64,000 nt of DNA. Source: a virus. The stretch spans positions 1 through 64,000 of IMG/VR virus record IMGVR_UViG_3300008113_011148; one strand, written 5' to 3'. The notes beneath the pieces are model-generated. The model had not been told where the DNA came from. It did not search any database and saw only the letters and a program-made list of their open reading frames with translations. Within the stretch, counting starts at the first letter, position 1. Each line of letters begins with the position of its first letter. Position numbers and translations under genes: made by a program. Below are positions 1,085 through 53,818 of this stretch, piece after piece.

Positions 1085-3220
1085 ATGACTAGGCTTACAA
1101 AATTATCTATTTTATTGTCATCAATTTTGTTGTTAATTTTTATAACGACTCAATCTTTAGTAGTTTTTCATTTCATTGACTATGTTGATGGCATTGGATA
1201 TATTGGAATGTCTTTATTTTTAGCTTTGATTCCATTTTTTGGCGTTTTTATATTTGAAACAATTAGAAGAAATAAGAAAACCAGAGAGGAGGTAGAATAT
1301 CAAAGAAAACTAAAAAACGTAATTATTTCTCAAAGTAGAAATTCTTTGTTCTACGAAGGCAGAGTGAACGATGGTGCCAGGACATTAACAAGAGAAGTAA
1401 CTAATACTATTAACACAGATAGATGTTCAGTATGGTTATATAACGAAGACAAAACATCTATTATTTGTAAACAACTTTATATAAAGAGTGAGGATCATTG
1501 GTATACTGATATTGAACTATTCAGAAAAGATTTTGAGAACTATTTTATGTATTTAGAAATCGATCCAATTATTATAGCAAATGATGCTGAGAAACACTCC
1601 GCGACCTCTTGTTTTACAGAAGTTTATCTTAAACCATTAGGGGTAAAATCAATGCTAGATGTCCCGATAACTTATAAAGGAGAAACAATTGGAGTTATTT
1701 GTATTGAAAGTCTTACTTTAAGAGAATGGAAAGAAGCTGAAGTTAATTTTGCACAGATGTTATCAACGCTTTATTCATTTGCTTATTCAATTAAAGAAGG
1801 TAATAATCAAAAGAAACAAATTGAAGAAATTGAAAAATTTATTGAAGAGTCAGCACTTGTCTCTAAAACAGATGAATGTGGTAAAATAACTTATGCAAAT
1901 AAGAAATTTACAGAAGTCTCAGGTTGGAATTTAGATGAATTATTAGGTAAAGATCACAATATTGTAAATTCAGGAATACATCCATCAGACTTATGGAAAG
2001 AAATGTATAAAGAAACCGTAAAAAATAGAAAAGTATGGAACTTTATTGTTACAAATAGGGCTAAAGGTGGGCATCTTTATTATGTTGATACTTATATTAA
2101 AGCTGAGTTTGATCCAGAAACAGACGAGTTAATTGGATTTATGTCAATAAGACAAGACGTATCCGATCTAAAGAAAAAAGAACTAGATATTAGAGATAGA
2201 ATGAATGCTATCAATCAATCTAACTTAGTTATAGAATTTGATACATTAGGTTATGTAAAATATGCTAATAATAATTTTTGCCATAGTATGGGTTATAAAA
2301 TGAAGGATATTATAGGAAAGCATCACAGTATTTTTGTTGAAAAAGAATTCTCTGAATCAAAAGAATATAGTAAATTTTGGAATAAATTAAAAAAAGGTGA
2401 TTTCGAAGCTTCGGAATTTAAAAGAATTAAAAAAGATGGTAGTGAAGTTTGGTTACAAGCAACATATAATCCAATTTTTGATAGCGAAGGAAATGTTATA
2501 AGGATAATGAAAATTGCAACTGATATCACTGATAAAGTTTTACAATCAATAGAAATAGAAAAGAAGAATACTTATCTAGAACATGCTGCTAAAATATTAA
2601 GACATGACATGCACTCTGGTATTAATACTTATATGCCTAGAGGAGTTAATTCACTTGAGAGAAGATTATCAGAAGAAGATATAAAAAATCTTAAAATAGA
2701 AGCTCCTCTTAAAATGATAAAAGAAGGACTAAAACACGCACAAAAAGTTTATAAAGGAGTATATGAATTTACCAACTTAGTAAAAAAAGATGTGGTTTTA
2801 AATAAAGAAGAGTGTAATATAAAAGAAATTTTATCAGATTATCTTTCATCAACCTCTTACAAATCACAAGTTATTTTAGATGATAATCTACCATCATTAG
2901 AAGTCAATGAAGCTCTTTTTTGCACATCTATCGATAATCTAATTAGAAATGGGTTAAAGTATAATGACAGTGATACTAAATGGGTTAAAGTTTATTTAGA
3001 AGATAAATTTATTTGTGTAGAGGATAATGGTAGAGGTATAAGTCAAAAAGATTTTGACGAACTATCAAAACCCTATGTTAGAAAAAAAGACCAAAAAGAA
3101 TCAGGAACAGGACTTGGTCTTAACATTTGTATTGCAATACTTAAAGAGCATAAATTTACAATTACCTGCCACAAAATTAAAAATGGTGGGACAAAATTAA
3201 AAATTAAAATATATGATTGA
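1085..3220 (+). CDS. Membrane PAS/GAF sensor histidine kinase
   Basis: A 711-residue sensor kinase. Two transmembrane segments (about 7-29 and 38-58) are followed by a GAF domain (about 85-240), two PAS domains (about 255-370 and 375-490), a dimerisation/phosphoacceptor helix with RHDMHSG (candidate phospho-His H507) and a C-terminal GHKL ATPase with the N box (DNLIRNGLKYND), G1 (DNGRGI) and G2 (GTGLGL). All motifs needed for autophosphorylation are present. It overlaps the receiver gene by 8 nt and is probably translationally coupled to it. The short extracytoplasmic loop suggests that the signal is sensed by GAF/PAS in the cytoplasm. A complete two-component pair is unusual on a phage. Confidence 0.9.
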   Translation: MTRLTKLSILLSSILLLIFITTQSLVVFHFIDYVDGIGYIGMSLFLALIPFFGVFIFETIRRNKKTREEVEYQRKLKNVIISQSRNSLFYEGRVNDGARTLTREVTNTINTDRCSVWLYNEDKTSIICKQLYIKSEDHWYTDIELFRKDFENYFMYLEIDPIIIANDAEKHSATSCFTEVYLKPLGVKSMLDVPITYKGETIGVICIESLTLREWKEAEVNFAQMLSTLYSFAYSIKEGNNQKKQIEEIEKFIEESALVSKTDECGKITYANKKFTEVSGWNLDELLGKDHNIVNSGIHPSDLWKEMYKETVKNRKVWNFIVTNRAKGGHLYYVDTYIKAEFDPETDELIGFMSIRQDVSDLKKKELDIRDRMNAINQSNLVIEFDTLGYVKYANNNFCHSMGYKMKDIIGKHHSIFVEKEFSESKEYSKFWNKLKKGDFEASEFKRIKKDGSEVWLQATYNPIFDSEGNVIRIMKIATDITDKVLQSIEIEKKNTYLEHAAKILRHDMHSGINTYMPRGVNSLERRLSEEDIKNLKIEAPLKMIKEGLKHAQKVYKGVYEFTNLVKKDVVLNKEECNIKEILSDYLSSTSYKSQVILDDNLPSLEVNEALFCTSIDNLIRNGLKYNDSDTKWVKVYLEDKFICVEDNGRGISQKDFDELSKPYVRKKDQKESGTGLGLNICIAILKEHKFTITCHKIKNGGTKLKIKIYD

Positions 3221-3647
3221 TTCAATTTTATTAGTAGACGATGAAGATCTTTTTCATCTTGTATTTGAAGACGCTTGTAGTCTTTTAGACATTACACTTT
3301 CATTAGAGAGTTTAACTTCAGCAGACGAGGCTGCAAAACTATTCAAAGGTTGGTTTGATGGAACCGGTGGAAAAAGACCTGAGTGTGTTTTTGTAGACTT
3401 AAATATTATTGGCTCTTCTTTTGATGGTATAGAGCTTATTAGAAAAATAAATTTTGAATATGGTGACGGGTTTGTTATTGGAATAATCTCATCATCAAAT
3501 GAACCAGATGAACAAGCTAAAGCTTTAAAAGCAGGAGCTCAATTTTGGATTATTAAGTCAGATGATATAGAACCTAGACTTGAAGAATTTAGAAAAGATT
3601 ACGACGGATTTAAAAATAGAACACTACCATTCAAAATTTATAAATAA
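3213..3647 (+). CDS. Single-domain response regulator (receiver)
   Basis: A 144-residue receiver-only protein. The acidic pocket is D9/D10, the phospho-acceptor is D62 (VFVDLNI), the switch serines are at 93-95 (ISSS), and the conserved lysine is K115 (IIKSDD). There is no output domain, so it must act by protein contact, as do CheY-type regulators or phosphorelay intermediates. The gene overlaps the kinase gene, so H507 is the obvious phosphate donor. The downstream membrane coiled-coil protein, 7 nt away, is a plausible partner. Confidence 0.88.
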   Translation: MIDSILLVDDEDLFHLVFEDACSLLDITLSLESLTSADEAAKLFKGWFDGTGGKRPECVFVDLNIIGSSFDGIELIRKINFEYGDGFVIGIISSSNEPDEQAKALKAGAQFWIIKSDDIEPRLEEFRKDYDGFKNRTLPFKIYK

Positions 3648-4620: not shown

Positions 4621-5364
4621 TTATTTTTTGTTTAAAATTTTTGCTATCTCTGTTTCTGAAAGTCTTGGTAAGTCTTCTACTACCGGATATTTTGATACTA
4701 CTCTAAATTTCTCACCATCCTCTAAATAAGAAATATCAAGATAGTAAGACTCACACCTAACCTTCATTATTGAATTTGTTATCTTAATCGGTATAATTTC
4801 TGAATCTTTACTTAAGTCATAATTATCTAAATTTTTGATAAAATTCCAATTGTCATTGTTATAAAAATGATTTCTTAAAAGTTTTATAAATTTACTTTCT
4901 TTTTCAAAAATTTCATTTTTTCTTACACCATGAACATCTTTAAATTTAAAACCAATTGTAATGTGAAAGTCAAAATCAGGTAGACCATATCTCTTTCTCA
5001 CGGCATTTAATTTGTCACTTTGACAAACAATAAAGAAGGACCTATTACCACTCCTTTCAGCAGTGCCTATACCTTTCATTTTTAAATCATCTATCTCATA
5101 ACTAAAAATGTAATCTAAAGAATTTACAAACTTATCAATTCCTATTTCTTTAGATAAACGATTATACTCACCTACATTAATTACAGTTAGATGATACTTA
5201 CCTAAATCTCTTGATTTTTGTAAATCCGTAAATTGTTTAAAATCATCTTCTCCAATTGAATCTTGAAGTTCGTTCAGAAAGGGTTGAACTATTTCATTTT
5301 GAATTTTAAGACCTAAGTAATTATTACCCAATACATCTTTTAAATATTCTACATAGTAAATCAT
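4621..5364 (-). CDS. Probable 2H phosphoesterase
   Basis: A 247-residue protein with two H-x-T motifs: HLT at 58-60, with hydrophobic residues around it, and HIT at 134-136 (DFHITIGF). This pair is the hallmark of 2H phosphoesterases, which hydrolyse 2',3'- or 2',5'-cyclic or linear phosphodiesters in RNA repair, or cyclic oligonucleotides (anti-CBASS Acb1 of T4 has this fold). A C-terminal domain of about 100 residues has no recognised match. A TTAATATATA box lies 6 nt before the ATG. The substrate is unknown; the fold assignment rests on the two motifs and their spacing. Confidence 0.6.
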   Translation of the reverse strand: MIYYVEYLKDVLGNNYLGLKIQNEIVQPFLNELQDSIGEDDFKQFTDLQKSRDLGKYHLTVINVGEYNRLSKEIGIDKFVNSLDYIFSYEIDDLKMKGIGTAERSGNRSFFIVCQSDKLNAVRKRYGLPDFDFHITIGFKFKDVHGVRKNEIFEKESKFIKLLRNHFYNNDNWNFIKNLDNYDLSKDSEIIPIKITNSIMKVRCESYYLDISYLEDGEKFRVVSKYPVVEDLPRLSETEIAKILNKK

Positions 5365-5394: not shown

Positions 5395-7584
5395 TTATCT
5401 TAATAGATTGACATGTCCGTTTATAAGATTGAATCCATCATTATCTTCGTTTCCAAATCTTATTTTCCAAGTATATATACCACTTTGACAAGGTTTTCCA
5501 CCATATGTACCATCCCACTTAGCATTGTGATCGAAAGACTCCCAAACAATTTCTCCCCATCTATTCCAAATTTCTAAATGAAACTCAGCTGGTGAAAACC
5601 CAGATGTAAAGACTACCTCAAAAACTTGATTATGCTCATCATCATCTGGTGTAAAAGAATTAGGTATGTAATAAATTACCTCAGGACAAACTGATATATT
5701 AACGGTTGTTGTCTCAATTTCAGAAAAACAACCATTAGATTCTACATAAACAGATATGTTACTGATGCCTTCTGAAAAATTAGCTAATAGATTTTGAGAT
5801 TGTATTGTATCACCATTTAAAATCCAAAAATGATTTGAAGGTTCTTGACTTGATGTTACCGAAAGACTAACACTCGCTGAGTCTTCATCACATATTTGAA
5901 TAAATGCGTTATCTGGATTGATTTCGACTATTTCAGGTTTTGGCGTAACCACAATATCTGAAGTTGTTTGAAATTGACAACCTGATAAAGTATAGGAATA
6001 AATTACCTGATTGATAGGCAAATTAGTTTGACTCGGACAGAATAAACTGCCGTTTACACCTAATCCAGAAAATTGACCTCCAGTTGGTATTGCTGACAAT
6101 TGCTGACAACTCTCATAGATACAAAAAGGACCTATCTGAGTAATTAATGGATTGATATCTAGTATAGTTGAAACTATCTGTACAGGCAATCCTAAACAAC
6201 CATTTTCTACAGGAGTTACTTCAGTAATTACTTGTCCGCTATTTTGTGAAAAGTCAATAACAATCTGATTAGAACCTTGACCAGATATTATATTACCTGT
6301 TGATTGCCAAATATATTGAAAATTAGGATTAACCGAAACAAAAAAAACTTCAGAGTTTGAACCAACACAAATAGTATCTGGACCTGTAATATTTGAGGTT
6401 GTTGGTATAGGTGAATCTATAAGTACAATAGGATTTGTAACTACACTACAGCCTTGAGCATCCAAAACATTCGCAGTATAGCTTCCTGCACAAAGACCAC
6501 CAATAGTAGCCCCAATAGTACCAGTAGACCAAGTAATAGTAAATGGTGGAGTGCCATTTTGTGGTGTTAATGTAGCAGCACCATCACAATCACCATTACA
6601 AGATGGATTAGTAATTTGTACTAAAGGTTGTGATAGATTAACAGGACCGGGCTGAACAAATATAGTGTCAGGTGGCAGCCCTGTCTGTGAATTACAACTT
6701 GACCAACCAGCAAAACAAGCTGGGTATTCTAATTTACAAGTGTAATAAGCACCTGCTTGAGGCGGTGTAACATTAATTGTTAGTCCTGTTCCGATTGCAA
6801 CTGGATTTCCTACTTGATACCAGGTTGGTGTTGGTGTGATAACAGCACCAGACGGTACCCATCTTCTCCCATCATTTTGAGCAGTCCATTGTGTTGAGTT
6901 TCTTCCAGGAGTTACCACGGCCTGAGTACCATTTGAATTTTGAACACACTGAGTGGCCGTTCCATTTGCCCAAGCACAGAACTGTTTATTTTGTGTATGA
7001 ACCTCTATTACATTTGTAGACTCATATAAAACTATATGAAATGTACCAGTAATTGATGTACAAGAATACATCGGAACATTAATCCAACTTACAACTAATT
7101 TACGACAAGGCGCAGTGCCTTGAACTTGATACCTAATTTGACCACCTAATGCTGGATTCCAATCCTGCCAAACACCCATAACTGAGTTAACAGGAGTAGC
7201 ATTTGAAGGAACATTAGCGGAAGTATATGTTGTTGGTTGATTTGGTGAAAATGATATCCATCCATTACTGCCTATATAAAATTGTGTATAGGAATTGCCA
7301 TAAAAACAAAAGGTAAATCCAATTTGAAAAGGACCCTGTTGTGAGTCATCTGTCATTTGAATTGATGTACCAGTATTTGTTTGATTGACAAAATTAATTT
7401 GTGAATTTTGATAAGTTGTGGTTGAATTTGGATTTAATCCAGCACCACATTGACTAAGGTCCGCAGTAAGAGTTGTTGAATTTTGTCCACAAGGTAAAAA
7501 AATATCAGGACCTATAAATGGGCAATTCTGAGAAAAAAGTGTAGTGGAAAGTATTAAAAATAGAATTGAAATAAAATTTCTCAT
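5395..7584 (-). CDS. Secreted multidomain protein: SprB repeat, PKD-like, CHU_C tail
   Basis: A 729-residue exported protein. Residues 1-19 form a signal peptide ending FSQN. A beta-rich N-terminal domain of about 300 residues is followed by a SprB-type repeat (about 325-390; CNGDCDG ... GGLCAGSY ... DAQGC), PKD-like modules (about 395-550 and 555-630) and a C-terminal gliding-motility-associated CHU_C domain (from YYIPNSFTPDDD to the end). CHU_C is a type B signal for the Bacteroidota type IX secretion system, so the protein should reach the cell surface or outside. It could be a surface adhesin made in infected cells or a virion fibre. The last three modules match, in order, three separate genes at 60116-62776. 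Confidence 0.85.
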   Translation of the reverse strand: MRNFISILFLILSTTLFSQNCPFIGPDIFLPCGQNSTTLTADLSQCGAGLNPNSTTTYQNSQINFVNQTNTGTSIQMTDDSQQGPFQIGFTFCFYGNSYTQFYIGSNGWISFSPNQPTTYTSANVPSNATPVNSVMGVWQDWNPALGGQIRYQVQGTAPCRKLVVSWINVPMYSCTSITGTFHIVLYESTNVIEVHTQNKQFCAWANGTATQCVQNSNGTQAVVTPGRNSTQWTAQNDGRRWVPSGAVITPTPTWYQVGNPVAIGTGLTINVTPPQAGAYYTCKLEYPACFAGWSSCNSQTGLPPDTIFVQPGPVNLSQPLVQITNPSCNGDCDGAATLTPQNGTPPFTITWSTGTIGATIGGLCAGSYTANVLDAQGCSVVTNPIVLIDSPIPTTSNITGPDTICVGSNSEVFFVSVNPNFQYIWQSTGNIISGQGSNQIVIDFSQNSGQVITEVTPVENGCLGLPVQIVSTILDINPLITQIGPFCIYESCQQLSAIPTGGQFSGLGVNGSLFCPSQTNLPINQVIYSYTLSGCQFQTTSDIVVTPKPEIVEINPDNAFIQICDEDSASVSLSVTSSQEPSNHFWILNGDTIQSQNLLANFSEGISNISVYVESNGCFSEIETTTVNISVCPEVIYYIPNSFTPDDDEHNQVFEVVFTSGFSPAEFHLEIWNRWGEIVWESFDHNAKWDGTYGGKPCQSGIYTWKIRFGNEDNDGFNLINGHVNLLR

Positions 7585-7694: not shown

Positions 7695-8870
7695 TTAGTT
7701 GAGCATTTGTTTGAAATTTTCAATTTCAATTCTTTTTATTTCATCACCTAAGGCTTTTCCTTTGAAACCTTGTGACATCAATTCCTGAGCAGATGTTGTT
7801 GGTTTGTATTCTACAAACTTTATTTTTACTGGATCATTTATACCTAACGCTCTAAACCATTCTAAAATAGTTTTATCTTCTATATGACATTGTAATTTTG
7901 ATTTATGTAAATCAAATGCAGTATCTGCTGTTAATTCTAAAAGTCTAATTAAAAAGACAACTTTAGAAGCTATCTGAGAATCTATTCTATATTCTTGCAC
8001 TAATCTTTTTTCTAAACCATCTGTATTCTCATTTTTAAAAAGGTTGGCAATCACAACAACAAAGTCTTTACTATCAACTAATTCAGTATTGATGTTAGAT
8101 CCTGGAAATACTTCAGACCACATATCAAATTTAGTAAAGAAGTTAAGATAATTTCTATAGTCTTTTGCTTGTTTCCAAGACTTGCACATTTCTTCCCAAA
8201 TTCTTTCTTGAGAAATTCTTTTCATTTCACCACTTTCAGGATCAATGTTTTCTAATTGTTTTCTTTTTTCAATTGCCTTCTCGGTATCTTTATGTAGTGG
8301 GTGTCCATATCTTGAAGCAAAACGGAAAGCTCTTAAAATTCTTAAAGAATCTTCATCAAATCTTTCAATCGGATCACCAACCATTTGAGTGACACCTTGC
8401 TCTAAATGTTCACGACCACCAGTCAAATCAACTATTTCTTTTTTATCTAAATCGTAAAAAAGCGCATTATATGTTAAGTCTCTTCGTTTAACATCATCTT
8501 CAATAGTAACTCCTAATTTTACTTCAGGGTTTCTACCTTTTGAAACATCTTCTCTGAATGTAGCAATTTCCATACCCATTGGTTGATCGTTGGTAAATAC
8601 AACAACAACTCCGAATGCCTTACCCTGTAAATTGGTTTTGTATTTATTTCCTAATATTTCTAATACTTCATCTGGAAGTGCATCAGTCGCTAAGTCAAAG
8701 TCTTTAGGAGTATCTCCAGTTAAGAAGTCTCTAACGGCTCCTCCAACAACATATAGTTTCTTGCCTTTTGATTTGAAAAGTAATTGTAAATCTTTTACAG
8801 ACTCTGGAATAATATCCCACATATTGTCTGATTTTGATTCTAAAAATTGTTTATATTTTTTTATTTTCAT
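7695..8870 (-). CDS. CCA-adding tRNA nucleotidyltransferase with capsid-targeting-like N-terminus
   Basis: A 391-residue class II tRNA nucleotidyltransferase or poly(A) polymerase relative. It shows GGAVRD (43-48), the metal-binding DFDLATD (57-63), VKRRDLTYNAL near 130 and the ERFDEDSLRILRAFRFASR helix, followed by an all-helical C-terminal half. These enzymes add or repair the 3' CCA of tRNA. The first residues, MKIKKYKQFLES, precede the catalytic domain and match the recurrent peptide of this window (hydrophobic-x-Glu at 9-11), so the enzyme may be packaged and injected; that is inference. A TGAATATATA box lies 5 nt before the ATG. CCA-adding and poly(A)-adding activity cannot be distinguished by eye. 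Confidence 0.85.
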   Translation of the reverse strand: MKIKKYKQFLESKSDNMWDIIPESVKDLQLLFKSKGKKLYVVGGAVRDFLTGDTPKDFDLATDALPDEVLEILGNKYKTNLQGKAFGVVVVFTNDQPMGMEIATFREDVSKGRNPEVKLGVTIEDDVKRRDLTYNALFYDLDKKEIVDLTGGREHLEQGVTQMVGDPIERFDEDSLRILRAFRFASRYGHPLHKDTEKAIEKRKQLENIDPESGEMKRISQERIWEEMCKSWKQAKDYRNYLNFFTKFDMWSEVFPGSNINTELVDSKDFVVVIANLFKNENTDGLEKRLVQEYRIDSQIASKVVFLIRLLELTADTAFDLHKSKLQCHIEDKTILEWFRALGINDPVKIKFVEYKPTTSAQELMSQGFKGKALGDEIKRIEIENFKQMLN

Positions 8871-8875
8871 ATAGC

Positions 8876-8885
8876 TATATATTCA
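8876..8885 (-). promoter_or_regulatory. Late-promoter-like box TGAATATATA
   Basis: A one-base variant of the recurrent box, 5 nt before the ATG of the CCA-adding enzyme gene. Confidence 0.4.
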
Positions 8886-8904
8886 GTAAAAGATAATAAA
8901 AAGT

Positions 8905-9402
8905 TTAGTATATGACTATACCGAACTCTATAAAATTAGAAGGTGAAACCTCTCTGAAACTTTTGTTGAGATTGTCTATATTATATTCTAAAATAGAAAA
9001 TCTTGAATCACCACCACAAGTCCAAAAAAACAATTTTAAAGACTCTTCTCCTAAATAAAACTCAAGATGTTTGAGTGTGTTATAAAACCAACTGGTGTTA
9101 TATTTTCTTGGTTTTAAGAAATCATTTTTTATAAAATTTTTATCAAATTCAAAATTTATATAAATTTTAGGTTCGATAGATTTTTTTACCATTGTTGGTA
9201 ATTTTTTCAATGGAGTTTTAACCAAATTATTAAAATTTAGATCATCGTATGTGAATATATCAAACTCCATATCATTTTCTTGAAATTCAATTAGAATATC
9301 TTTAATGACTTTACAAGTCGATGTTAAATCTAATTGATTGTTTTCAAAATTAATTGAAGTGGATTCGTTAAATTTCTTTAAGTATTTCATAATGTATTTC
9401 AT
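8905..9402 (-). CDS. Unknown protein with capsid-targeting-like N-terminus
   Basis: A 165-residue protein. There are two in-frame starts 12 nt apart; the second (9390) gives MKYLKKFNEST, which matches the start of the neighbouring paralogues exactly, and is the more likely one. Possible prohead-protease cut after F-N-E. The rest is mixed alpha/beta without a recognised domain. It is the last gene of a five-gene run (13117 to 8905) of proteins with the same N-terminus, separated by 0-10 nt. Confidence 0.6.
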   Translation of the reverse strand: MKYIMKYLKKFNESTSINFENNQLDLTSTCKVIKDILIEFQENDMEFDIFTYDDLNFNNLVKTPLKKLPTMVKKSIEPKIYINFEFDKNFIKNDFLKPRKYNTSWFYNTLKHLEFYLGEESLKLFFWTCGGDSRFSILEYNIDNLNKSFREVSPSNFIEFGIVIY

Positions 9403-9405
9403 AAT

Positions 9406-10683
9406 TTAATCTCTATATAATGAATTTAATCTTGTTATTCTTAACTTATCTATAAATTCTTCAAACTCTGACAATTCAACTGGTCTTTCATCATGCTCAC
9501 ACCAAGTTTCTAATATATCTTCTTTAAAGTCTTTACCATTAGGTTGTATGTAATCGATGTCACCTTCAAAAAGAGCAACTAATAAGTTTCTGAATTTGAT
9601 TGCTTCCCTTCTATTAGCAAAATAAACTTCACTGAATTCAGACCCCTCAATTGATATTACACCCGATGGAGTAAGTGGTAGTTTCACACGATCTTCATCT
9701 GTATAATTTTGTGTAGTAAGATTGATATAAATATCTTGTAACCAAATTATACCATTCGCTCTATTTGTATAACCTTTAATATCACCACCAGCATACCAAT
9801 CTAAAACTTCTAAATCTTCTTCTGAAACTGGATGAACTCCAAACATAAATTGTGGCCAAAGATTATATCTATCAAAATCCATCCATTCTGGTAACAACTC
9901 ATTTTTGTAATAGTCAGAATTAAAATAAATTTGAATGTAACAGTTTGCAAACCTTATTTCACTTGCTGATCTACCAGTAAATCTTAATTGAAATTGACCT
10001 AACTTTTTTGCTTCTTCTAAAGCCTTTTTGTGTTTAGCTTCTACTTCTCTTTGCTTAATAGTTTCAGCCCAAGCTTTAAGTTGCTCAGGTCTTTTGATAT
10101 GACCTAACTTAGACAGTTTATCAGCAGCACTTATATATGTTTGTGGTTTTAATTCTTCATTAGTTGAAAGATGACCTCTTGTTTTATCTACAACAATTTT
10201 ATCTTTAGTGAAGGAAATCTCAAATGTGAATTTATTAACTCTATCAAAAGTCATTGGATCATAAACTTGTGATTTATTAATTTGAGGTCTTCTTTGGTAT
10301 TCTTTTTCAATAGACTTCACACCAAATGTTTCCGGATCTGTTGTCCAATGATAACCTTTAATTTTCTGGTTAATTGTGAATTCATCTTCTGATTCTTCAA
10401 AGTTTTCATCTTCTACACAAGTAAAGTGTTCTATTTCAAATCCTTCAGATTTTAAATAAGACCAAACTGATTCAATTTGAAGTTTTATATCTCCATAAGT
10501 GAATTCTTTAGCCCTACTTACAACAACTTTGACTCTTTCTTTTTGAGAATGATAATCTATTTCAGATACTTTAGTCTCAAAATCTTCATCTCTTAAATCA
10601 ATAAGCAAGTCTTCAATAGTTGATTTCAATTCTGAATTCAATCTAACACCAACAGCTTCTTCATATCTTTTTAAATACTTCAT
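9406..10683 (-). CDS. Tandem paralogue 4 of the KYLKRFNE family (long form)
   Basis: A 425-residue protein beginning MKYLKRYEEA. It shares two modules with the next three genes: TYISAADKLSKLGH followed by a WA-x(3)-[KE] helix (here about 180-220), and a late RREAIKFRNLL helix (about 360-372). The C-terminus SLYRD is shared with the adjacent paralogue. Uniquely, about 160 extra residues are inserted between the N-terminal peptide and the first module. No enzyme motif is seen. Packaging in the capsid is inferred from the N-terminus. Confidence 0.65.
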   Translation of the reverse strand: MKYLKRYEEAVGVRLNSELKSTIEDLLIDLRDEDFETKVSEIDYHSQKERVKVVVSRAKEFTYGDIKLQIESVWSYLKSEGFEIEHFTCVEDENFEESEDEFTINQKIKGYHWTTDPETFGVKSIEKEYQRRPQINKSQVYDPMTFDRVNKFTFEISFTKDKIVVDKTRGHLSTNEELKPQTYISAADKLSKLGHIKRPEQLKAWAETIKQREVEAKHKKALEEAKKLGQFQLRFTGRSASEIRFANCYIQIYFNSDYYKNELLPEWMDFDRYNLWPQFMFGVHPVSEEDLEVLDWYAGGDIKGYTNRANGIIWLQDIYINLTTQNYTDEDRVKLPLTPSGVISIEGSEFSEVYFANRREAIKFRNLLVALFEGDIDYIQPNGKDFKEDILETWCEHDERPVELSEFEEFIDKLRITRLNSLYRD

Positions 10684-10686
10684 CTC

Positions 10687-11547
10687 TTAATCTCTATATA
10701 AACCATTTACTGACATTCTCTTAACCGCCTCAATAGCTCCTTTATAAGTATCCTCTGTAAAAGGATTTTTTGGCCATGTATCTGGATTATTAATATCATA
10801 TTCATCTTCTCTACCTGGTAAAAACTTATCCATTAGTTTTTCTCTCCAGTCTTCTTCATCTAAAATAATTACCTCTTTTAATTGTTGAGCAATTGTTCTA
10901 CCTTTCCAAGTTCCCCAGTTAGCTTTTCCTTCTAATGTATTAGCTAATAAGTTTCTAAATTTCATAGCTTCTGCTCTTGAATTAAAATGGAATGTAAAAC
11001 TATCTCTATCTTCAAATCCACCAGCACCTGCCCTACAAAGAGGAACTGCACCTTTATCACAGAGTGTAAGCCAAAGTCTATTTGTCCAGTATCTATAATC
11101 ATCTCCCCACATTGAGTTATTTCTAAAATACACTATATCCCCGTCTTCACTTGTTTCTAACATTCTAAGTGTTTCGTCATCTGAAGGTATAATTGCAAAC
11201 TCCATAGCAATTCCCATATGCCAATCCATACCCTCATATATCCAATCCCATAATTGGTCTTTAAACCAATCAGATTCTAAACACATCTGTAGATAAAATT
11301 TACCAGAAAAAACATCTTTCTTATTTGACCCATAACCTCTTGTCATAGTAATATCAAATAGACCATACTCTTTATTTTCATCCTGAGCTTGTCTTAACTT
11401 TTGAGATTTCTCTCTTAATTCAACTTGAGTCGCATAATCTAATAATTCAGCACCTCTTCTTTTATGACCCATCTTAGTGAATTTATCACCAGCTGATCTA
11501 TAAGTAGATGCTTTTAACTCTTCATTAAATCTTTTTAAGTATTTCAT
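10687..11547 (-). CDS. Tandem paralogue 3 of the KYLKRFNE family
   Basis: A 286-residue protein beginning MKYLKRFNEELKASTYRSAG. The TY-x-SA-x-[DR]K-[FL]-x-KMGH module directly follows the N-terminal peptide, and SRAEAMKFRNLLANTLEG is the late helix. It ends GLYRD like its neighbour. The middle is Trp/Tyr-rich beta structure. It overlaps the next upstream gene by 4 nt, so the paralogues form one translation-coupled operon. Function unknown. Confidence 0.65.
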   Translation of the reverse strand: MKYLKRFNEELKASTYRSAGDKFTKMGHKRRGAELLDYATQVELREKSQKLRQAQDENKEYGLFDITMTRGYGSNKKDVFSGKFYLQMCLESDWFKDQLWDWIYEGMDWHMGIAMEFAIIPSDDETLRMLETSEDGDIVYFRNNSMWGDDYRYWTNRLWLTLCDKGAVPLCRAGAGGFEDRDSFTFHFNSRAEAMKFRNLLANTLEGKANWGTWKGRTIAQQLKEVIILDEEDWREKLMDKFLPGREDEYDINNPDTWPKNPFTEDTYKGAIEAVKRMSVNGLYRD

Positions 11548-12290
11548 ATCGTTGAGGAAAGTAAATTTGGAGATATTGTTCTAATGTAGTCAGCTGCATC
11601 TTCTAATTTAAATCCATAATCAGAAGAGAATGAATTCTCAGCTAAAATAGTATTAGTTAATTTTTCATAAAGGTCATCAGCATCAGTATATCCAGATGGA
11701 TAACCTAATTGTGGATTACTAAATATTTGAATTAGTAAGGTTTTAAATTTATTAGCAGAAGCTCTATCAGCAAAAGCCACTTTACCATTCATATCTTCAT
11801 CATAGTCCCAAAGTTCATATTTAGTGAATTTAACTTGATCGTCACTTAAATCATACTTCAATGTAAATATCTTACCCCAGAAGAAACCATTTCCAAAATC
11901 ATAGTCAGGACAAAGATCCATATATTGATAGATTAAATCTTCAGATGATGGAATAAGTCCTAAAAAGAAAGTGATTCCATTTTCAGGTTCATCAGAAAAT
12001 GCAAGTTCATCAAAGTTAATATCTAAGTGAAAGTCACCAGTAAGTGTATCACCCTTTCCTGTCCAACTTCTTTTTTCTGGATTTTTTATAGTCATCTTAA
12101 ATGTTCCAAAAGGAGAATAATCTTGTATGCGGTCTTGCCACTTAATCATTTCTTCTTTTTTCTCAGTTTCTTTGGCCCAATCTTTAAGAGCATTTGCTCT
12201 ATCGTGATGACCTAATTTATCTAATTTTCTAGCAGCAGACATATAAGTCTGTGGTCTTAATTCTTCGTTAAATTTCTTTAAATATTTCAT
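11544..12290 (-). CDS. Tandem paralogue 2 of the KYLKRFNE family
   Basis: A 248-residue protein beginning MKYLKKFNEELRPQTYMSAA, with KLDKLGHHDRANALKDWAKE directly after and the late DRASANKFKTLLIQIF helix. It is the same architecture as its neighbours but lacks the YRD ending. There is no signal peptide or membrane segment. Function unknown; the common frame suggests repeated gene duplication followed by rapid divergence of the middle. Confidence 0.65.
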   Translation of the reverse strand: MKYLKKFNEELRPQTYMSAARKLDKLGHHDRANALKDWAKETEKKEEMIKWQDRIQDYSPFGTFKMTIKNPEKRSWTGKGDTLTGDFHLDINFDELAFSDEPENGITFFLGLIPSSEDLIYQYMDLCPDYDFGNGFFWGKIFTLKYDLSDDQVKFTKYELWDYDEDMNGKVAFADRASANKFKTLLIQIFSNPQLGYPSGYTDADDLYEKLTNTILAENSFSSDYGFKLEDAADYIRTISPNLLSSTI

Positions 12291-12298
12291 ACTATTAA

Positions 12299-13117
12299 TT
12301 ATATTTCTCTAAACCAAGTCGATTGGCTACTTTTATCAATGTCAATTGAAAAAAGATTATTAACACTTATCTTATTTATTCTATCTTCAAAATCTTCTAT
12401 GTCGTCAGCTGAAGCATTTACACAACTAAGTAGTTCCATTACCTTTTCTTTGTGTGGTGATATTAAATCATTTAGTTGTCTTTTGAATTTTAGAGCAGAA
12501 GCTCTATCTGAAAATATTCCAAAATATGGATATTCTTTAGCATAATACTTTTTAACAGGCTTTGACTTCATAATCAAAACTTCATTTGTCCATTTATACA
12601 TACCATTTATATCAACTACCGCATCTCCAGTCATTGGCTCTTCAGTATCATAATCCCAATTATATTGGTCTAATCCTTCTTCCCAATTACTAAACCAAAC
12701 TTGAAATGAAAACATCGGTAAATTAGATGTTTTAATTTCTTGCCAGGAGTCATATTTATCTTTTGTTTCTTCAGCAGGTTGAAAAGTAAAATTAAAAGTC
12801 ACACAAAGTGGTTGATTACCAGCTGCCCAATATTCAACCATCTGTTCTGCTGAGTAATCAAAGGTCTTTAGTTCTGAAGAATTTGGTCTACCAAAATAAC
12901 AATCACATTTTGGATTAGTAAATTTAGCCGATTGAGCAATAACATTTGTGGTATTAGCCCAATGTATATTGTAAAAACCATACTGCTTCTCTAATCCATA
13001 GTCAATAAGAGGAGTTGCCCTTTTTTTACCACCACCTGGTAGCTGTCTTAATCTGTAACCAGCTTGTATATAGGTATTTGGTTTAAGCTCTTCGTTGAAT
13101 CTTTTAATATACTTCAT
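12299..13117 (-). CDS. Tandem paralogue 1 of the KYIKRFNE family
   Basis: A 272-residue protein beginning MKYIKRFNEELKPNTYIQAG, the first gene of the tandem run. The late helix DRASALKFKRQLNDLI is conserved, while the first module is degenerate (YRLRQLPGGGKKRA). The centre is Trp/Asn/Thr-rich. A TTAATATATA box lies 6 nt before the ATG and probably drives the whole run down to 8905. Function unknown. Confidence 0.65.
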   Translation of the reverse strand: MKYIKRFNEELKPNTYIQAGYRLRQLPGGGKKRATPLIDYGLEKQYGFYNIHWANTTNVIAQSAKFTNPKCDCYFGRPNSSELKTFDYSAEQMVEYWAAGNQPLCVTFNFTFQPAEETKDKYDSWQEIKTSNLPMFSFQVWFSNWEEGLDQYNWDYDTEEPMTGDAVVDINGMYKWTNEVLIMKSKPVKKYYAKEYPYFGIFSDRASALKFKRQLNDLISPHKEKVMELLSCVNASADDIEDFEDRINKISVNNLFSIDIDKSSQSTWFREI

Positions 13118-13123
13118 ACTTTT

Positions 13124-13133
13124 TATATATTAA
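13124..13133 (-). promoter_or_regulatory. Late-promoter-like box TTAATATATA (leftward)
   Basis: A perfect copy, 6 nt before the ATG of the first tandem paralogue. It is back to back with a rightward copy at 13138-13147. Confidence 0.5.
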
Positions 13134-13151: not shown

Positions 13152-13574
13152 ATGAAATGGATTAAATTATTCAATAAAATGAATGAGAATAATAGTGTTT
13201 TCTATAACAAAACCTCTGAGTTTATAATCAAAAGTTTACCTAAAGTCAAAGATGGTTATATCAGATTATGGAGAGGAAATAGACCAAATGAAGTGGGTAT
13301 AAATCCAAGTTATACTTCATCTTTAGAAGGAATAGCTTTACCATTTGTCTATGGATATGATGGAGTTTTGTCTTATATAGATTTACCAATTAGTGACATA
13401 TCAAACTATGAAGTTTCTGGTGGAGTTGATGGTGAAGAATTTATAATACCAAATTCTTTATTAAAAAATGTTGTTGTTGTTGATAAAATTCTATATAAAA
13501 AAAATTTACCAGATACATTATCAGTAGGTAATATATCATCATTTGATGATTTTGCTGATAATTTTCTTAAATAA
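13152..13574 (+). CDS. Putative small mono-ADP-ribosyltransferase with capsid-targeting-like N-terminus
   Basis: A 140-residue protein. After an N-terminus of the recurrent type (MKWIKLFNKMNENN) it shows the order of motifs of R-S-E ADP-ribosyltransferases: IRLWRG with R41, YTSSLEGIALPF with the Ser-Thr-Ser-like turn at 55-57 and the following A-x-x-F helix, and GEEFIIP with candidate catalytic E96. T4 Alt, which is packaged and injected to modify host RNA polymerase, belongs to the same superfamily. The -2 Glu/Gln of the classic [QE]-x-E motif is Gly here, so the assignment is a motif-level inference. A TTAATATATA box lies 4 nt upstream. Confidence 0.5.
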   Translation: MKWIKLFNKMNENNSVFYNKTSEFIIKSLPKVKDGYIRLWRGNRPNEVGINPSYTSSLEGIALPFVYGYDGVLSYIDLPISDISNYEVSGGVDGEEFIIPNSLLKNVVVVDKILYKKNLPDTLSVGNISSFDDFADNFLK

Positions 13575-49565: not shown

Positions 49566-50123
49566 ATGAAAATCGTAAAATACCAAGAATTTATAAAAGA
49601 GGAATTACAAGATACTCCTGAGACTTATGTTGCTACCGCTTTAAACAATTTGAAGCGAAAGATTGATAAAATGTTTGAATTTCAATCTGATGACGAAAAT
49701 GATAAAGAAGAGAATAAAGAGCAAGATATAAAAAGTGTAAAGAAAAAAAGTAAAGAGAAAATGAGTTTCGAAGACTTGGGTGTTAGACTTGAAAGTTCTG
49801 AAATTTCTAAATATTCAAAACTATTTGATTCATTGACTGTCAAATTTTCAGACGATCAGAATACTTATACTCTTATATTTATGATAGATTTAAAAGATGC
49901 TATGCCGAAAGATCCTGCAAAAGATTTTGACATAGACCAAATAGAAAAGTGTTATATTAAATTTAAAAAATATGACTTAGACACATTTGAGGTAATTGGT
50001 CAATTAAGTAAAAATGTAGAAATGAAAAAAATTGATGAGGACTTCATTATAGAGTTAAAATTAGAACTCGATGAGAAATTTGGAGACTCAGATGAGGAAA
50101 AATTTGAGATAGAAACAGAATAA
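49566..50123 (+). CDS. Unknown protein with capsid-targeting-like N-terminus
   Basis: A 185-residue protein beginning MKIVKYQEFIKEELQDTPE, the copy closest to the T4 internal-protein type (KYQEFI-x-E, I-K-E at 10-12). An acidic/basic low-complexity linker (about 40-65) is followed by a beta-rich domain (LTVKFSDDQNTYTLIFMIDL) and an acidic end. The small compact domain after a linker fits a packaged protein; no enzyme motif is visible. Confidence 0.65.
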   Translation: MKIVKYQEFIKEELQDTPETYVATALNNLKRKIDKMFEFQSDDENDKEENKEQDIKSVKKKSKEKMSFEDLGVRLESSEISKYSKLFDSLTVKFSDDQNTYTLIFMIDLKDAMPKDPAKDFDIDQIEKCYIKFKKYDLDTFEVIGQLSKNVEMKKIDEDFIIELKLELDEKFGDSDEEKFEIETE

Positions 50124-51974: not shown

Positions 51975-53216
51975 ATGAAAGTTTTTAAATATTCAGAGTT
52001 TTTAACTGAAAGTAAGATTGAAGAATTACTTTTAGAATCTAAAGTTGTTTTTTCAAAGAAGTTTTTAAATCTTCTTAATAGAATGAGAACAAATAAAATC
52101 GCTAGTGATTTATTAAATATTTATTCGAAAGATTACAATGTTCAACATAATTATATTGATATTACGGATAATAAAGAAGAGGTATCATTTACACCTGATA
52201 GAAAGGTTCAAGAATTGATTGCAGGGAAACCAGAAGTATATAAAGTTGGAACTCGTCGTCAATTAACACATAGTGATTCAAATAACAAATTATTTGAAGC
52301 TTTGGGATATGATAAAAATCAAGAATATTGGACGCCAAATGATGGACAAAGAGGTTTAATTAAATCAGAGGTTGTTAGTCCAACTTCTGGTAAAGTATTT
52401 GTCCTTTTTGAAGAATTAACTGATGAAGTTGAAAAAAGATATGCTGTTTTAAATAAAGATTGCTTAAGCTTAGCAGATTTTGATGATTCAAACATATGGA
52501 AAACTTCTCGTAATCCGATTAGAATTGGAAGACTTATAAGACCACTTCTAAGATCTGTTGGTGTTACTGTTACTGATAGAGAAGTCGAGGAGTTTACAAA
52601 TATGTGGAAAGCAACATACGATTTTGCAGCAGATGTTTTAAAACAATTTGATATTGTTAAAGGTAATACTATTGCTTATTGGTATGACTATGGAAAATAT
52701 GTTGATGGTGGTGGAACACTTAACAACTCTTGTATGGCTGAAGTTGATTCGGATTACTTTGAGATTTATACTTCAAATTCACAAGTTCAATTAGTTATCC
52801 TTTATGATGATAACGGACAAGTTCAAGATGGTAAATACACATCAACTAAAATTAAAGGTAGAGCAATTCTTTGGGATGCTGAACTAAATGGTCAAAAAGA
52901 AATGTTTATGGATAGAATCTATACTACTTATGATTCAGATGTAGACCTTTTCAAACAATTCGCTCAAAAGAATGGTTGGTTTTATAAAGACTCTCAAAGT
53001 ATGACACCAAGAGAATATATTACAAACGGAACATCTAAATCAAGACCAGAGATAATTGTTAAAGTAGATAACGCAGATTGTGAATACTATCCATATGTTG
53101 ATACTATGTGTTTTTGTTATACTGGTTCTAATGAGTTAAGAAATACACAAGACGATGATGATTCTTCTATGAGAGTTCTTCGCTCAACTGAAGGTGAATG
53201 GTATAGTGATTATTAA
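51975..53216 (+). CDS. Large protein with capsid-targeting-like N-terminus
   Basis: A 413-residue protein beginning MKVFKYSEFLTESKIEELLL (L-T-E at 10-12, the canonical prohead-protease type). The body has TIAYWYDYGKYVDGGGTLNN, SCMAEVDSDYFEIYTSNSQV, VLIKGRAILWD-like and FMDRIYTTYDSDVDLFKQFA segments that recur in hypothetical proteins of other large phages; no catalytic function is known for them. It is the strongest candidate here for a major packaged protein. It lies 2 nt upstream of another member. Confidence 0.65.
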   Translation: MKVFKYSEFLTESKIEELLLESKVVFSKKFLNLLNRMRTNKIASDLLNIYSKDYNVQHNYIDITDNKEEVSFTPDRKVQELIAGKPEVYKVGTRRQLTHSDSNNKLFEALGYDKNQEYWTPNDGQRGLIKSEVVSPTSGKVFVLFEELTDEVEKRYAVLNKDCLSLADFDDSNIWKTSRNPIRIGRLIRPLLRSVGVTVTDREVEEFTNMWKATYDFAADVLKQFDIVKGNTIAYWYDYGKYVDGGGTLNNSCMAEVDSDYFEIYTSNSQVQLVILYDDNGQVQDGKYTSTKIKGRAILWDAELNGQKEMFMDRIYTTYDSDVDLFKQFAQKNGWFYKDSQSMTPREYITNGTSKSRPEIIVKVDNADCEYYPYVDTMCFCYTGSNELRNTQDDDDSSMRVLRSTEGEWYSDY

Positions 53217-53218
53217 TT

Positions 53219-53818
53219 ATGAAGATAAAGAAGACATATAAAGAATTCATAAAAGAAAGTAATGAATATATTGATGAAAAAACAATCAATGATATTTTTA
53301 TTGATTTAATTGATATGGATTTCACACTTACGTTTATTGATGGATACCGAGCTAGTAAAGATAAAGGCGCTAAGTATTTTATTGATTTAAAGAAAACCGC
53401 TAATAGTAAATATGACTATATTGAAAATGATTATGCTTATGGTGTCTCTAATTTAGAACCTATGAAAGTAGATATAAGTAAGGTTTTAGATGCCTTACAA
53501 TCGGCTAAAGAAACTTTGAATAGTATGGAATACACAGTTGGTTATGAAATTGAATTCAACTTTAATGATCAAAGTCAATTTCAGATTTCTTGTCATATTC
53601 AACATAATGATACTATTGGTCAAATAATAGAATCAAAGAAAGAAATAAAATCAGAATTAAAAGGGAATGACTACCAAATGGTTTCTGGTATTATAGATAT
53701 ACTTAAAAAAGTAAAAGATAAAGAAAATAGAATGGAAATAGCAAAAGATATGATTTCTCAATTTAAAAGAGAAGATATAAAATTTGACTATGATAAATTT
53801 TTAGATTCAATAAAATAA
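53219..53818 (+). CDS. Unknown protein with capsid-targeting-like N-terminus
   Basis: A 199-residue protein beginning MKIKKTYKEFIKESNEYIDE (I-K-E at 11-13). It has an alpha/beta middle (DMDFTLTFIDGYRASKDKGA, YTVGYEIEFNFNDQSQFQIS) and a helical Lys-rich end. It is coupled to the previous gene and ends at a strong terminator. Function unknown. Confidence 0.6.
   Translation: MKIKKTYKEFIKESNEYIDEKTINDIFIDLIDMDFTLTFIDGYRASKDKGAKYFIDLKKTANSKYDYIENDYAYGVSNLEPMKVDISKVLDALQSAKETLNSMEYTVGYEIEFNFNDQSQFQISCHIQHNDTIGQIIESKKEIKSELKGNDYQMVSGIIDILKKVKDKENRMEIAKDMISQFKREDIKFDYDKFLDSIK

Follow-up and report, generated by a model that had tools for sequence, protein, structure and literature searches.

A CCA-adding enzyme with a capsid-targeting-like leader in a very large virus, and the many other proteins of its relatives that share the leader

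We found that a CCA-adding enzyme (tRNA nucleotidyltransferase) of a very large virus begins with a short leader resembling the capsid-targeting sequence of phage T4, and that leaders of this kind recur on many unrelated proteins of its relatives. The enzyme is encoded in the window, by which we mean the whole analysed stretch of 64,000 nucleotides (positions 1 to 64,000 of IMG/VR record IMGVR_UViG_3300008113_011148). The virus is of very large size and its host type is Bacteroidota-type bacteria. Its closest complete relative, LR745206.1 (634,780 bp), has a CCA protein 75% identical to that of the window. Huge-phage genomes above 634 kb have been placed among the Mahaphages, a clade whose predicted hosts are Bacteroidetes (PMC7162821). 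The gene and its leader are located as follows:

7695-8870, minus strand: CCA-adding enzyme (tRNA nucleotidyltransferase) with a capsid-targeting-like N-terminal leader, an intact ORF of 391 aa (Pfam, PHROG, AlphaFold, Foldseek)
8838-8870, minus strand: leader MKIKKYKQFLE (residues 1-11), with a putative cut after E11 (tag profile and homologue alignment)

The original prediction of a complete tRNA nucleotidyltransferase was borne out. The 391-aa ORF matches PF01743, the family of the nucleotidyltransferase head that CCA-adding enzymes share with poly(A) polymerases (E=2.4e-31), and phrog_2244, tRNA nucleotidyltransferase (E=3.1e-57), and its closest solved structures by sequence are CCA-adding enzymes. 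The AlphaFold model has a mean pLDDT of 90.6, with residues 1-20 forming a low-confidence end (block means of 54 and 68). Foldseek matched this model to class II CCA-adding enzymes over the full length (6qy6, E=3.7e-18, and others), an alignment in which the complete head-neck-body-tail fold is present. The motifs GGxVRD, DxD, RRD and EDxxR are invariant columns in the CCA enzyme alignments. By sequence and model, the product is a full-length class II CCA-adding enzyme, for which addition of CCA itself, as against poly(A), CC or A alone, is predicted.

The start of the protein reads MKIKKYKQFLE^S, the caret marking the predicted cut; the leader peptide (MKIKKYKQFLES) is short and poorly ordered. 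F9, L10 and E11, expected from the original prediction of FLE at residues 9-11, are present in the translation. M1, Y6, F9, L10 and E11 are common to six phage homologues from the clade, which are 100-50% identical; a linker variable in length and sequence comes next, and then the conserved enzyme. With a tag profile from whose training the CCA proteins were held out, the window leader scores 12.7 bits, which 0 of 44,750 shuffled N-termini reach. Because no shuffle attains this score, and because Y6, F9, L10 and E11 are invariant, the leader is not a product of chance: it is non-random. The CCA leaders of LR745206.1, LR756502.1 and the relative L004 score 6.2-6.9, slightly under the strict threshold. 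The distant homologues in L005 (39%) and L074 (38%) have other starts, with N-E just ahead of the conserved part (MMRKVDFIKKVFNLNE^SS in L005 and MQLKTFTEFQMVNE^AQ in L074). The L005 homologue (L005:9974-12259) is a 761-aa chain that joins a leader, a CCA enzyme, an HD domain and a C-terminal part that we read as HAD-like from its DFDDT motif; glutamate-ending motifs between the parts (LSE^A, INE^G) could be protease sites.

Jumbo-phage CCA enzymes of the same family (Atu_ph07, GAP32, Brevundimonas and Caulobacter phages) are regarded as RNA-repair tools (PMC7824862, PMC7162821); a 2021 survey lists them as such with packaging not mentioned (PMC7824862). All five annotated enzymes that we checked, from the Atu_ph07, Kabachok, GAP32, Caulobacter C1 and Vibrio KT1024 phages, have no leader and start directly at the enzyme. 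The tag threshold was reached by 0 of 77 bacterial CCA-type ORFs (best score 4.1 vs 7.9), a set without Bacteroidota in which the N-termini vary in length. The proposal that the N-terminus is extra relative to host enzymes may hold as regards the tag itself, within the limits of the varying N-terminal lengths and the make-up of the bacterial set. Scanning genome contigs with the single CCA protein gave no match, and scanning them with the CCA alignment gave 78 loci, 0 of them from Bacteroidota.

The leader was followed across whole genomes with a profile HMM from which the CCA gene was held out, because a regular expression proved too loose (95 observed vs 31 shuffled) and 8-mer PSSMs failed, drifting or over-fitting and missing the CCA tag. 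The profile was trained on 98 N-termini of LR745206.1, its CCA gene excluded, with a threshold of 7.9 bits, and was applied to longest-ATG ORF calls rather than gene-finder output. In LR745206.1, 114 of 895 genes are tagged against 1 expected from composition-preserving shuffles, a count that is partly circular because the training N-termini were chosen by pattern from the same genome; internal methionine contexts, taken as a control, score as tagged in 3 of 2820 cases. LR756502.1, which lies outside the training, has 134 tagged genes among 925 (0.9 expected). When 97 tagged proteins (95 others and two CCA enzymes) were compared without their leaders, they fell into 88 clusters. Of the 422 orthologue pairs compared, both members are tagged in 24 and a single member in 25; for most of these 25 a tag below the threshold can still be recognised in the untagged partner. 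N-terminal extensions have been reported elsewhere for ribosomal protein S21, but its frames in the two huge relatives, 64 and 70 aa long, leave little space for a tag. The CCA leader is one case of a genome-wide system covering ∼13-14% of genes (∼1 in 8) in the largest relatives. A more distant huge phage, LR756511.1 (L010:11752-13278), has a clear S77 (T4-type) protease and a CCA enzyme with a different T4-like leader, MRTTFLEFMGLKEA. It shows 7 T4-like leaders in 257 sampled genes against 0.5 expected, a count that is only a lead because the pattern was written after examples had been seen.

In the window, six consecutive genes on the minus strand (7695-13117) are tagged according to the profile. 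The CCA gene is the last of this run; the others, together with further tagged or tag-like genes, are:

8905-9402, minus strand: tagged protein MKYIMKYLKKFNES, 165 aa, score 16.8
9406-10683, minus strand: tagged protein MKYLKRYEEA, 425 aa, score 11.8, C-terminal part related to the next genes (blastp)
10687-11547, minus strand: tagged protein MKYLKRFNEE, 286 aa, of a paralogue family, score 14.8
11544-12290, minus strand: tagged protein MKYLKKFNEE, 248 aa, of a paralogue family, score 14.9
12299-13117, minus strand: tagged protein MKYIKRFNEE, 272 aa, with which the run begins, score 13.6, with a box at 13124-13131
13152-13574, plus strand: weakly tagged protein MKWIKLFNKMNEN, 140 aa, diverging from the run, score 8.0 (threshold 7.9)
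49566-50123, plus strand: tagged protein MKIVKYQEFIKE, 185 aa, T4 register, score 10.7, box upstream
51975-53216, plus strand: tag-like protein MKVFKYSEFLTES, 413 aa, T4 register, score 7.5, just under the threshold, orthologues tagged
53219-53818, plus strand: tag-like protein MKIKKTYKEFIKES, 199 aa, T4 register, score 7.0, just under the threshold

The paralogue family beside the CCA gene (9406-13117, minus strand; RFNEELxPxTYxxAxxKL) has no Pfam match and is kept in the relatives L001, L008 and L009. Each huge relative also has several paralogues of the gene at 51975-53216, and in LR745206.1 at least four of these are tagged.

The tag resembles the leader of T4 internal proteins. T4 IpII and IpIII both begin with MKTYQEFIAE, annotated as a 10-residue signal peptide that is absent from the mature protein. 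The first ten residues of IPIII suffice for head entry, with targeting mainly through residues 4 and 7 (Y and F) and processing through residues 8 and 10, and the T4 protease cuts after L/I-x-E (PMC9026906). The tags described here occur in two registers, Y-x-x-F-I-x-E^S, which is the T4 register, and a shorter one ending in F-N-E, I-F-E or F-L-E. In the two huge relatives, 22 and 21 genes carry T4-register tags, against 1.3 and 1.1 by shuffling. In the CCA leader Y-x-x-F is retained, with Y6 and F9 spaced as Y4 and F7 of IPIII, and the E comes one residue early; its end, F-L-E, departs from the strict T4 rule, while other tags have I-x-E.

Both huge relatives encode a gp23-type capsid protein (E 6.8e-26 and 4.5e-28). 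In both, the capsid gene immediately follows an ORF of ∼700 residues that begins with a region matching the gp21/S77 protease family weakly, under the curated cut-off. This ORF contains 11 Y-x-x-Y-[L/I]-x-E-[N/S/H] units, mostly 14 residues apart; the next-richest protein in either proteome has 3. The repeats (YSEYLAEN, YSEYIAEN) resemble YQEFIAEA of the T4 leader. In LR745206.1 the ORF occupies 198,546-200,669 (L032:18546 to L033:669), and, with a protease-like domain fused to the scaffold-like repeats, it resembles a protease and a scaffold joined in a single polypeptide. The 67.8-kb record of the window, a fragment, contains no protease or capsid gene. The capsid protein reads FHSINE^NAYANASNVSGMGAVVAAQPASLAGTT at the place expected for the T4-type delta-domain cut, and a tagged 84-residue protein of LR745206.1 reads MRYLKPYKKFIE^NADGSSTSGMGAVSSAQPGGLAGTT, with the same continuation after E and a tag in the CCA register. 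In the same genome, the sequence that follows the predicted cut in the small tagged protein, and that of a further protein, mimics the mature major capsid N-terminus (GMGxVxxAQPxxLAG); the places concerned are 93,266-93,520 and 200,752-202,434 (L027:13266-13520 and L033:752-2434), and one near 555,266 on the minus strand. The original prediction of a capsid-targeting-like peptide before the catalytic domain is supported by the genome-wide tag, the T4-like spacing, a gp21-type protease with matching repeats, the capsid-protein junction, the upstream box and the conservation among orthologues. Several independent lines of sequence evidence therefore support the reading of the tag as a T4-type capsid-targeting sequence.

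Tagged genes also have an upstream box in common with the head genes. Two lie on the tagged run of the window:

8875-8882, minus strand: ATATATAG box, four nt before the CCA ATG, of the same type as before the LR745206.1 capsid and protease genes (enrichment test)
13124-13131, minus strand: AATATATA box preceding the tagged run, upstream of its first gene

Among genes of the two huge relatives with at least 30 nt of upstream space, ATATATA[C/G] is favoured by tagged genes (19/56 vs 45/356, p=2e-4; 20/55 vs 52/367, p=1.7e-4), and it also precedes the protease and capsid genes. In the same comparison, tagged genes avoid TATATTTG (1/56 vs 71/356, p=2e-4; 3/55 vs 69/367, p=0.01), a box that ranks among the most enriched upstream of genes in both huge phages and that we take to be of the TAnnTTTG type found in Bacteroidota promoters. 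The plain T4 late box TATAAATA shows no enrichment. The box of the ATATATA[C/G] type stands directly before the CCA gene in L003 and at the operon head in L001 and L009. A late-type box before the CCA gene had been proposed: a box is there and its motif is enriched before tagged genes, and the word late is our inference from boxes shared with the head genes.

Tagged proteins with a recognised domain include a T4 Rnl1-family RNA ligase, a 2H phosphoesterase-exonuclease, a SMODS-associated NUDIX domain and a DHH domain, as well as an M15 peptidase, a NUDIX hydrolase, a SET domain, HNH nucleases, a methyltransferase and a lysozyme. The Rnl1-family ligase was found in 6 of 6 larger relatives searched; it is tagged in four and untagged in one (G002), in which the protein begins directly with the enzyme. 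The tagged 2H phosphoesterase-exonuclease has a sub-cut-off match to the anti-CBASS protein Acb1, and this Acb1-like protein is tagged in 4/4 clade members where it was found. The window has a different 2H gene near the CCA gene:

4621-5364, minus strand: 2H phosphoesterase (2H-SAK), untagged (PF22547, 9.7e-19)

A 2H gene lies closely downstream of the CCA gene in L001, L004, L008 and L009. The pairing of phosphoesterases with CCA enzymes suggests that damaged 3' ends are healed before CCA is rebuilt.

What can be read in these genomes is the enzyme, its leader and the recurrence of that leader on unrelated proteins, together with the shared box and, in the relatives, the protease-scaffold and capsid junction; from this we infer packaging, cleavage, injection and a repair role of the CCA enzyme. 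Of these steps, packaging appears well supported, if indirectly. We consider it probable that the CCA enzyme is made with the head proteins, targeted to the capsid, cut after E11 and injected, and that it keeps tRNA 3' ends intact. The enzyme would be synthesised late, the T4-type leader would address it to the prohead core, and the gp21-type protease would cut after E11 during head maturation. The trimmed enzyme would then stay in the head with the DNA and enter the next cell with it, being present before any phage gene is translated. Its most likely role would be to rebuild damaged or trimmed CCA ends of tRNAs, of host or phage; it would also complete the phage's own CCA-less tRNAs, and would act alongside the tagged Rnl1-type ligase and 2H phosphoesterase. 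tRNA is a frequent target of bacterial immune systems (PMC12409363), and toxSAS enzymes modify the tRNA CCA end itself (PMC11559606). Restoration of tRNA 3' ends against a tRNA-cutting defence would fit the tagged RNA ligase, the 2H phosphoesterase and the conserved 2H neighbour.

A serious alternative, which we regard as unlikely, is that the CCA enzyme acts only in the producing cell on phage tRNAs, and that the leader packages at most a functionless fraction. LR745206.1 has 59 tRNA genes, 0/59 of which encode CCA, and they offer a substrate without packaging; many jumbo phages, moreover, carry a leaderless CCA enzyme. Ordinary maturation of phage tRNAs nevertheless leaves unexplained why the leader is invariant when the linker after it varies; the box before the CCA gene is of the head-gene type and not the host type, and the CCA neighbours are also tagged. 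This strongest rival is compatible with a repair role.

It is still less likely that the tag is a localisation signal for elsewhere, directing proteins for instance to a compartment for replication or to the membrane of the host. The sequences directly display only a short N-terminal peptide shared by many proteins, and jumbo phages with protein shells must sort their proteins. However, the core replication enzymes checked carry no tag, although they are the ones that would need such a compartment (untagged among the proteins examined: ribonucleotide reductase, an EF-G-like factor, gyrase B, DNA ligase, HSP70, tail sheath and the capsid protein). Tag spacing and E match the T4 sequence and the scaffold-protease repeats, one tag junction is identical to that of the capsid protein, and the tag has no hydrophobic stretch of a Sec signal. 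That the conserved start is a nucleotide-level signal for translation or transcription start is very improbable: within the tags, codon choice departs from that of the genome for Leu and Thr (p=0.0003 and 0.006) but agrees with it for K, E, N, F, S, R and I, pointing to the peptide as the conserved entity, the two registers share residues rather than DNA, and the tag goes with gene class.

The capsid-targeted reading of the tag places these phages beside known systems. As in T4 IPI-IPIII, whose capsid-targeting sequence is processed by gp21, a short N-terminal leader with Y-x-x-F and Glu at the cut, here a predicted one, stands on otherwise unrelated proteins, and the genomes of the huge relatives encode a gp21-type protease and a gp23-type capsid protein. 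T4 internal proteins counter GmrSD restriction enzymes (PMC12373910), and the cargo here would likewise have counter-defence roles. T4 has few tagged genes, whereas the huge relatives have >100 per genome, and they differ further in their enzymatic cargo including RNA repair, in the two leader registers, in the scaffold-like repeats fused to the protease and in the host phylum. In phiKZ-like jumbo phages (SPN3US, phiKZ), many inner-body proteins are cut after Glu by a gp21-type protease and ejected with the DNA (PMC5694885, PMC9026906); their propeptides are of other kinds, in contrast to the short common leader on small unrelated proteins and the gp23-like capsid genes described here. T4 RNA ligase 1 repairs tRNA against anticodon nucleases, and an Rnl1-family ligase is also present in this clade. 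Unlike T4 RNA ligase 1, the ligase of this clade usually bears the leader, so it may arrive together with the DNA instead of being synthesised once infection has begun.

Leader-directed packaging (T4) and large sets of ejected proteins (phiKZ-like phages) are already known; what is new is the scale (∼13-14% of genes), together with a cargo for RNA repair and the group of phages concerned. In the open-licence literature we found no paper on this tag in huge phages or on a packaged CCA-adding enzyme, an absence that is not proof. With about one gene in eight tagged, the largest relatives may inject a whole enzyme toolkit with their DNA. More broadly and more tentatively, at somewhat short of an even chance, the largest known phages of ∼640 kb may load ∼100 different proteins into the head via one T4-type peptide. 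The load would include an RNA-repair kit of CCA enzyme, Rnl1-type ligase and 2H/Acb1-like phosphoesterase-exonuclease; tRNA and nucleotide signals would then be protected from attack as soon as the DNA enters, ahead of all phage gene expression. If this is right, the sequence of the tag is enough to predict which of the many uncharacterised genes in the biggest phages have injected products, and these are likely host-takeover or counter-defence proteins. The T4 internal-protein principle would then be widened from a few small proteins to >100, catalytic RNA repair included, and tRNA repair would be placed at the very start of infection.

Two further features of the window lie beside the CCA gene and near the window start. 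The protein encoded at 5395-7584 (minus strand) contains SprB repeats as well as a type IX secretion signal of the CHU_C kind, which suggests phage use of the host's type IX secretion; its gene is inserted between the CCA and 2H genes here and not in the relatives. At 1085-3647 (plus strand), a sensor-kinase-like protein with GAF, PAS and HATPase domains is followed by a response-regulator-like ORF.
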